DNA of 64,000 nucleotides from Epinephelus fuscoguttatus (lineage: Eukaryota > Chordata > Actinopteri > Perciformes > Serranidae): positions 25,196,322-25,260,321 of the forward strand of contig NC_064753.1 in assembly GCF_011397635.1 (NCBI RefSeq), read 5' to 3'. The position numbers were made by a program, and so were the translations under genes. Each line of letters begins with the position of its first letter. The first letter of the stretch is position 1. The notes below the pieces were generated by a model, which was not told the DNA's origin, made no database searches, and was given only the letters and a program-made list of their open reading frames with translations. Shown here one piece after another: positions 23,201-24,670 of the stretch.

Positions 23201-24670
23201 CTCTGAGACTCATCCACAGCACAACCTGGATTGGATACAGGCCACCTTGTTGCCCAGCAACCCTGTTTGCTTCCTAGATTGCTCCATGGTTGGTATACGA
23301 TGCAAATGTGCTGTGTTGGGGTAGAAATGAGTTGAGAGAGCAGATCTTAACATCATCATTAGCTCTGCTTTCTGGTGAAAGGTCAAGGAATTAAGTCAGC
23401 TGTTTCAAGTGTTAAAGAAAGAAATCTGTGTGGAAAGGGGGTTATTTTTGGCATGGGGGGGCTGTTGTTGTGAGTAAGACAGTGAAGGTGTGCTGGTCAA
23501 CATCTTGTTTCTCTCAACTGTTCCCTTTAGGTGCCAGCACTGGAGTCTGTGGAGCAGGGAGGTGTAAGCAATCACACTGAGGCTGCTCTTATACACAAGT
23601 TGCTGTCACTGCTGTTAAAGGTACATTAGTTGCCTAATTCATGCTCAAGTGTTTATGTCATCATGCAGCAGGTTTTTAAAGTCCTGGCGTAAGCTTTAGG
23701 GTCATAACGTGTTTTTAATACAGTGAATGAAAGTGAAATAATTGGTGTAACTTATTTGGTTCGACCCCCTGTTCATTTAACTCTCTCCAGGCCGGGTGTA
23801 AGCCCAGTGATATAGGTGTGATCGCCCCCTACAGGCAGCAGTTAAAGAGCATCTCTGCTCTGCTGCAGTCCTCTGCTTTCACCGGTGTAGAAGTGAATAC
23901 AGTGGACAGGTACCAAGGACGGGACAAAAGTCTGATCATTTTCTCTTTTGTCAAGAGCACTGCAGAGGAAGGACACGTAAGTGCATCTCCTCCATCCGCT
24001 TTTTTTGACTCCTCCATCTGCATTTCTTTTCTCTGTGCCTCTGCATGGGGGAACAAGCAAGTGAACAGGTGAGTGAGAACCTGATCTGACTCTCTGCTGC
24101 TTCTCCTTTCATAGTTGGGAGAGCTGTTGAAGGACTGGCGTCGCCTGAATGTAGCCATCACCAGAGCTAAACACAAGCTGCTGATGGTGGGCTCTGCCAC
24201 AACACTACGACGCTACGCACCTGTGGAGAAACTACTCAACCATCTCCAGCAAGAGAACATGATATCCTTTAATTACATTATATATTACTCTTCAATGTGA
24301 GGATTACTTACTTACAGTTGCTCGGTTTCAACCAGGGTATTATGTAAATGAACTGTGGTAACCTTCCCTCCATCTTACCAGTGCCCAGGTCCTCCTGCTC
24401 ATTTCCCAGCTCAAATTGTTTGCTGGCACTGGGGCTGTTTTCTGTTGAACAGTTGAAGTCGTCAGTGTTCCCAACAATTTGTGGCTGATGCTACAAGACT
24501 GCTTCTATGCAGTTTTTGGATGACTTAACCAGAGTTTTTGTTACATGTCATGTTTGTTTTATCTTTTTTTCATGTATCCTGTGTCTACACTGTTTTTTCC
24601 TGAACCCTTACTTCACATTATCCAGCTCCCACCAGCTGCTCACAAGGCCTTACCGAGCATGTCCCTGTGA
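11219..24670 (+). CDS. dna2: DNA replication ATP-dependent helicase/nuclease DNA2, complete, 25 coding exons
   Basis: Trims long flaps in Okazaki-fragment maturation, resects DNA ends and processes stalled forks, in nucleus and mitochondria. Exons: 11219-11248, 11719-11775, 13432-14335, 14689-14809, 15050-15199, 16482-16665, 16810-16958, 17108-17230, 17443-17689, 18439-18553, 18807-18963, 19180-19371, 19505-19747, 19881-19994, 20130-20239, 21019-21128, 21313-21441, 21749-21841, 22232-22425, 22654-22743, 23075-23288, 23531-23620, 23791-23976, 24115-24261, 24617-24670. They sum to 4203 nt (1400 aa plus stop) with consistent phases. A PIP-box-like motif (QRNISSFF) is at residues 15-22, followed by a low-complexity tail with many SP sites to about 345. 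Iron-sulfur cysteines are C471, C732, C735 and C741. Nuclease motifs are GKID (D614) and LELKTGK (E640, K642). Helicase: Walker A GMPGTGKT (989-996), DEAS (1102-1105) and motif [10 protein letters not shown]. Human DNA2 (about 1060 aa) lacks most of the N-terminal extension. All key residues are intact. The last intron is AT-AC. Confidence 0.95.
11776..13431. other. DNA2 intron 2, with a hAT-like repeat remnant
   Basis: AT-rich intron. From 12293 the sequence TAGTGCTGGGCGGTATGATT begins a segment (to about 12440) that resembles the end of a common fish hAT MITE. I cannot place its other end. The rest shows nothing recognisable. Confidence 0.35.
15391..16016. mobile_element. MITE with inverted ends in a DNA2 intron
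   Basis: CCCAGTTCAGACCAAAGATT at 15391 is mirrored by AATCTTTGGTCTAAACTGGG ending at 16016, with one mismatch in 20. The element is 626 bp with no coding frame of note. It lies in the intron between DNA2 exons 5 and 6, well away from both splice sites. Family uncertain. Confidence 0.75.
16170..16275. repeat. Fragment of a MITE also present at 62874-63205
   Basis: The sequence TGCGAATAGATGCCCCTAAA followed by TCCGACACACCGGACC resembles one end of a repeat whose fuller copy lies at 62874-63205. The other end is missing. Confidence 0.4.
17754..18350. mobile_element. Harbinger-like non-autonomous element in a DNA2 intron
   Basis: Inverted ends AAGGCCTATGCACACC (17754) and GGTGTGCAAAGGCCCTT (ending about 18350) bound a block of about 597 bp. 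An internal piece reads [15 protein letters not shown], which resembles the W-x-N-L-R-D segment of MADF domains carried by PIF/Harbinger accessory proteins. It is a decayed remnant, between DNA2 exons 9 and 10. Confidence 0.5.
20340..20963. other. DNA2 intron 15, AT-rich with TA-rich tract
   Basis: Intron between exons 15 and 16. A degenerate TATATAA tract lies at about 20822-20878. Nothing else recognised before the TG run. Confidence 0.5.
20964..21010 (+). repeat. (TG)23 microsatellite abutting a DNA2 splice acceptor
   Basis: The run of 47 bases ends 8 bases before the exon start at 21019, leaving only CTTTGCAG as acceptor. The following exon encodes the Walker A motif. Confidence 0.92.
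21925..22110 (+). repeat. Old interspersed repeat fragment in a DNA2 intron
   Basis: Words such as GCTGCGGCTGGAGGCATTGT, ACTTCAAGAAGACCTTGAGG and GAGGCATTCAACTGTGAGGC recall a repeat common in fish and molluscs. Truncated and diverged, between DNA2 exons 18 and 19. Confidence 0.35.
24262..24616 (+). other. dna2: Putative U12-type AT-AC intron, last intron of DNA2
   Basis: The intron starts ATATCCTTT at 24262, the textbook minor-spliceosome donor. It ends AC at 24615-24616. A branch-site match TTCCTGAAC lies at 24597-24605, 12 bases from the branch A to the intron end. Joining 24261 to 24617 keeps the frame and gives [18 protein letters not shown], which lines up with the human DNA2 C-terminus (EKLIIDLPS...). 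Reading through instead gives a short unrelated tail ending at 24298-24300. There is no GT-AG pair that restores this homology as well. Confidence 0.8.

Follow-up and report, generated by a model that had tools for sequence, protein, structure and literature searches.

A probable U12-type AT-AC intron at the 3' end of the DNA2 gene of Epinephelus fuscoguttatus

Results

The DNA2 gene and its surroundings

The window, by which we mean the whole stretch of 64,000 nucleotides of Epinephelus fuscoguttatus DNA that was analyzed, carries the coding region of DNA2 on its forward strand at 11219-24670. The gene model, assembled manually with splice signals and the open frame as guides, has 25 exons encoding 1400 amino acids, running from an ATG at 11219 to a stop codon at 24668-24670 with the frame intact and no internal stops. 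Twenty-three of the 24 introns have GT-AG ends, and the last one, intron 24, has AT-AC ends. Mouse DNA2 (PDB 5eaw) matches residues 368-1396 of the model with 1179.5 bits, and the model contains the Pfam domains Dna2, Dna2_Rift, AAA_11, and AAA_12. The Walker A motif, GMPGTGKTT, is encoded by the exon at 21019-21128, and a TG repeat (20964-21018) ends at most 9 nt from the acceptor of this exon; TG tracts beside an acceptor can influence exon inclusion. The predicted N-terminus (11219-14809, about 367 residues) is unaligned to mouse DNA2, and residues 1-367 are modeled from the open frame and splice signals. Within it, exon 2 encodes QRNISSFF, which fits the pattern QxxIxxFF of a PCNA-binding PIP-box.

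Upstream of DNA2 lies an exon encoding C2H2 zinc fingers (3242-4189). There are also two overlapping open frames at 8484-9546, which resemble a Tc1-like DNA transposon; the one frame that was scanned (8878-9546) contains the Pfam domain DDE_3. Downstream of DNA2, within 34500-39000, an RRM fragment (Pfam RRM_1) is found at 37614-37976, and from the human gene order one would guess that an HNRNPH3-like gene is located there. The Pfam search returned nothing for the pieces 34787-34876 and 35242-35541 or for 51226-51537 on the minus strand, and an Rfam scan of the window gave nothing at the gathering score.

Signals of the last intron

The penultimate exon, exon 24 (24115-24261, forward strand, as are all of the features described in this section), ends in frame after the codon ATG, and the intron that follows it (24262-24616) is 355 nt long and of phase 0. 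The initial annotation had described this intron as having AT-AC ends, the donor ATATCCTTT, and a branch-like site 12 bases from the intron end, and all of these are present as described. Specifically, the donor ATATCCTTT occupies 24262-24270, has a C at position +5, and agrees in 9 of 9 letters with the consensus of U12-type AT-AC donors, which is itself ATATCCTTT. The consensus of U12-type branch sites is TTCCTTRAY, located close to the 3' end of the intron, and the branch-site-like element TTCCTGAAC at 24597-24605 matches it in 8 of 9 letters, the departure being a G at position 6 where the consensus has T. The presumed branch A is at 24604, and the 3' splice site AC (24615-24616) is 12 nt past it. 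The last coding exon (24617-24670) encodes 17 residues and the stop codon and aligns to the tail of mouse DNA2, ILDLPSREHESLS.

The same motifs were scored in every other intron of the gene. For the seven donor letters that follow the terminal dinucleotide, ATCCTTT, intron 24 has 7 of 7 and the other 23 introns have 0 to 4; for the branch site, the 8 of 9 letters in intron 24 compare with at most 7 of 9 elsewhere, and intron 15 lacks a candidate. The 27-letter stretch that spans the donor has one exact match in the whole assembly (1.047 Gb in 26 contigs).

The splice junction and the C-terminus of DNA2

When 24261 is joined to 24617, the reading frame is preserved and the protein runs from ...QQENM into the 17-residue tail. 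The earlier claim that this junction restores a DNA2-like C-terminus is borne out by the mouse protein, which reads DHLNAEQL/ILDLPSREHESLS across the junction and contains ILDLPS, and the alignment is gap-free there. The tail here contains IIQLPP, and that of human DNA2 was taken by the initial annotation to contain IIDLPS. By contrast, a reading limited to GT-AG introns had been said to end in a wrong tail at 24300, and translation does place a TGA at 24298-24300. Because exon 24 and the intron are each followed by AT, the exact position of the splice is uncertain by 2 nt, and placements with AT-AC, TA-CA, and AT-AT ends all give the identical mRNA.

The query used for the gap-free alignment had been pre-joined at the claimed junction, and a freer test is provided by a scan of trial junctions. 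Exon ends from 24225 to 24559 were combined with restarts at least 40 nt further on and up to 24759, and the products of the resulting 105,313 pairs, each of at least 52 residues, were scored against mouse DNA2. The top score, 197, is shared by the claimed junction and those displaced from it by -1 to +3 nt, a set within which a protein comparison does not discriminate. Left unspliced, the sequence scores 173, which is also the highest value among the 401 GT-AG pairs; the best of the 201 GC-AG pairs reaches 178. Both kinds of pair were rejected as alternatives, as neither restores the mouse-like tail. An arbitrary CC-AG pair (24265/24723) reached 190, and the last exon is short, and homology by itself is therefore inconclusive.

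How often the motif pair arises by chance

We defined a strict pair as ATATCCTTT followed by a branch site with at most one mismatch and an AC 9-16 nt past the branch A, with an intron of at most 1000 nt, and a loose pair as one in which the intron may be up to 5 kb and have AT-AC or GT-AG ends. When one strand of the window was shuffled 100 times with its dinucleotides preserved, strict pairs arose 3 times. They were absent from 400,000 strand-bases elsewhere in the same genome (both strands of 20 stretches of 10 kb on contigs C2, C3, and C4), in which ATATCCTTT was found once. A shuffled strand contained 2.09 loose pairs on average; in the unshuffled window there are two on the forward strand, one of them intron 24 of DNA2, and one on the reverse strand. 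The other forward pair, at 59942-61606, contains the second ATATCCTTT of the window, with a U12-like branch site and an AC end, and the reverse pair is at 11452-7287; pairs of this kind occur at about the rate expected by chance. With about two loose pairs per shuffled strand and two others in the window itself, the rarity of the motifs was dropped as proof in its own right. What makes chance unlikely for intron 24 is that its motif pair coincides, in frame, with the junction of best homology. The motif pair taken alone is only moderately rare, and we infer from the sequence that the strength of the case comes from its coincidence with the best DNA2-homology junction.

Discussion

The splicing class of intron 24

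Based on the sequence features presented herein, we propose that intron 24 of DNA2 is almost certainly a genuine U12-type (minor-class) intron of the AT-AC subtype. The class assigned to it by the initial annotation is supported by the donor, the branch motif and its spacing, the C at +5, the reading frame, and the homology to the mouse ortholog, and the GT-AG alternatives fail to restore the tail; the U12-type reading is by far the best one. The intron is of phase 0 and is located at the 3' end of the gene, both of which are unusual for minor introns and neither of which excludes the class. Phase 0 accounts for a minority of minor introns, on average 22% (PMC10639083), and U12 introns are reported to be concentrated in the 5' portions of genes (PMC2426677).

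The alternative that survives best is mixed, twintron-like use, in which the U12-type pair would be the main one and a cryptic U2-type pair, the GT at 24297 and the AG at 24625, would come into play under weak minor splicing. We regard this as unlikely, and it is compatible with the U12-type main reading, so that any weight given to it does not exclude that reading. Both cryptic sites are present in the sequence. The possible donor, AAT/GTGAGG with its GT at 24297-24298 on the forward strand, scores 5.9 on a matrix made from the gene's own U2-type donors, which is inside the range of the real ones (-1.0 to 10.6), and the possible acceptor is the AG (24624-24625, forward strand) of a CAG that is 9 nt downstream of the AC. 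Cryptic U2-type use under weak minor splicing has been reported for other A-type introns (PMC8280824), as have twintrons in vertebrates (PMC3564746). Against mixed use stands the product itself, as GT 24297 joined to AG 24625 gave a tail without homology in the trial-junction scan. Judging by the sequence, use of AG 24625 from the AT donor would instead drop IIQ and stay in frame.

Far less probable, to the point that we give it hardly any credence, is that there is no intron and that DNA2 terminates in a divergent tail at 24298-24300, or that a GT-AG intron such as GT 24297/AG 24625 is used in its place. The donor-like score of GT 24297 and the pyrimidine-rich stretch that precedes the CAG at 24623-24625 would favor such a reading. 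It is opposed by the trial-junction scan, in which the unspliced product and the best of the GT-AG products score equally and both fall below the claimed junction, and such a reading would leave unexplained a perfect U12 donor placed exactly where the homology ends. An end of the gene within the intron is also opposed by the absence of AATAAA and ATTAAA from 24262-24616, on which grounds intronic polyadenylation was rejected; the first AATAAA beyond the coding end is at 25159-25164 on the forward strand.

AT-AC ends alone do not establish the U12 class, and the same ends would also be found in a U2-type AT-AC intron removed by the major spliceosome. Such introns do exist, and a study in human cells looked at 85 introns of the major AT-AC kind or of related subtypes (PMC8280824), but we consider it extremely improbable that intron 24 is one of them. 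In sodium-channel genes, the U2-type AT-AC introns share their terminal dinucleotides with intron 24 and all have G at +5 (PMC2831892), whereas intron 24 has C, and it is because of this C that the U2-type AT-AC class is disfavored and was set aside. After +5 the U12 letters of CCTTT are complete, and, set against the sodium-channel introns, intron 24 is U12-like in its branch motif and in the short distance from it to the intron end. The donor of intron 24 scores -3.6 on the U2 matrix, compared with the leave-one-out range given above for this gene's 23 GT donors, which is weak evidence given that the matrix was built from GT donors only and the A at +1 accounts for most of the -3.6.

Proposed splicing pathway and the outcome of retention

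For the U12-type intron that we favor, the known pathway of the class suggests that U11 and then U6atac would pair with the donor ATATCCTTT, and that U12 would pair with TTCCTGAAC leaving one A unpaired as the branch nucleotide. The minor spliceosome would then join 24261 to 24617 to give the normal 17-residue C-terminal tail. If splicing fails, translation would continue into the intron (24262-24300, forward strand) and end at the TGA, yielding a DNA2 protein in which 12 unrelated residues replace the last 17. The stop codon would be located in what would then be the last exon with no junction downstream, and junction-dependent nonsense-mediated decay should therefore not act, which holds for the modeled coding region unless the 3' untranslated region contains an exon junction. 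The retained transcript would then be limited mainly by retention in the nucleus. The junction falls after residue 1383, and the best helicase stretch in Pfam stops at residue 1362 and a match to UPF1 at residue 1388, so the altered tail would lie on the margin of the helicase core or outside it.

It is plausible, as the initial annotation proposed, that DNA2 expression could be tied to the efficiency of U12 splicing. We put forward a more specific hypothesis with great caution, as we think it improbable in this form. With a minor intron in the last position, weak minor splicing might generate, if the transcript is exported, a tail-swapped DNA2 with its nuclease and helicase domains intact. 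This would serve as a protein-level readout of the capacity of the minor spliceosome, and part of the dwarfism associated with U4atac might run through DNA2. The latter is proposed because variants in DNA2 (PMC10676203) and variants in the minor-spliceosome RNA U4atac (PMC6717393) both cause primordial dwarfism with microcephaly.

Comparison with known minor introns

A U12-type intron in DNA2 has been noted before. Section 4 of PMC10676203 states that a search of U12DB identified one, and proposes a possible role for the minor-spliceosome protein CRIPT in promoting the splicing of DNA2. The gene and the intron class are the same as here, and the passage, written in the context of human disease, names the intron without species, intron number, or subtype; it is likely that the U12DB intron is orthologous to intron 24. 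Mouse DNA2 protein is continuous across the junction site, which does not show that the mouse gene has an intron there. Among the matches listed in a search of the openly licensed literature, mostly seen as titles and the openings of abstracts, none besides PMC10676203 places DNA2 among the genes with minor introns. The minor-class intron in DNA2 and the regulatory idea are hence already in print, and the present result is best taken as a solid point of annotation rather than a discovery. What the window adds is a description of the intron in one DNA2 gene, along with its subtype and the incorrect tail that pipelines restricted to GT-AG introns would give to DNA2 here. A clear AT-AC minor intron in DNA2 is consistent with the suggestion of CRIPT-dependent splicing made in PMC10676203.

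The nearest comparison by subtype is with the A-type (AT-AN) minor introns whose splicing depends on CENATAC (PMC8280824), with which intron 24 has the AT-AC ends and the U12 donor in common. The searched text of that paper contains 0 occurrences of dna2. As reported there, loss of CENATAC affects 92% of A-type introns compared with 24% of G-type introns. Intron 24 of DNA2, as an intron of the A-type, would thus belong to the subtype that, according to PMC8280824, is the most responsive to the loss of CENATAC.
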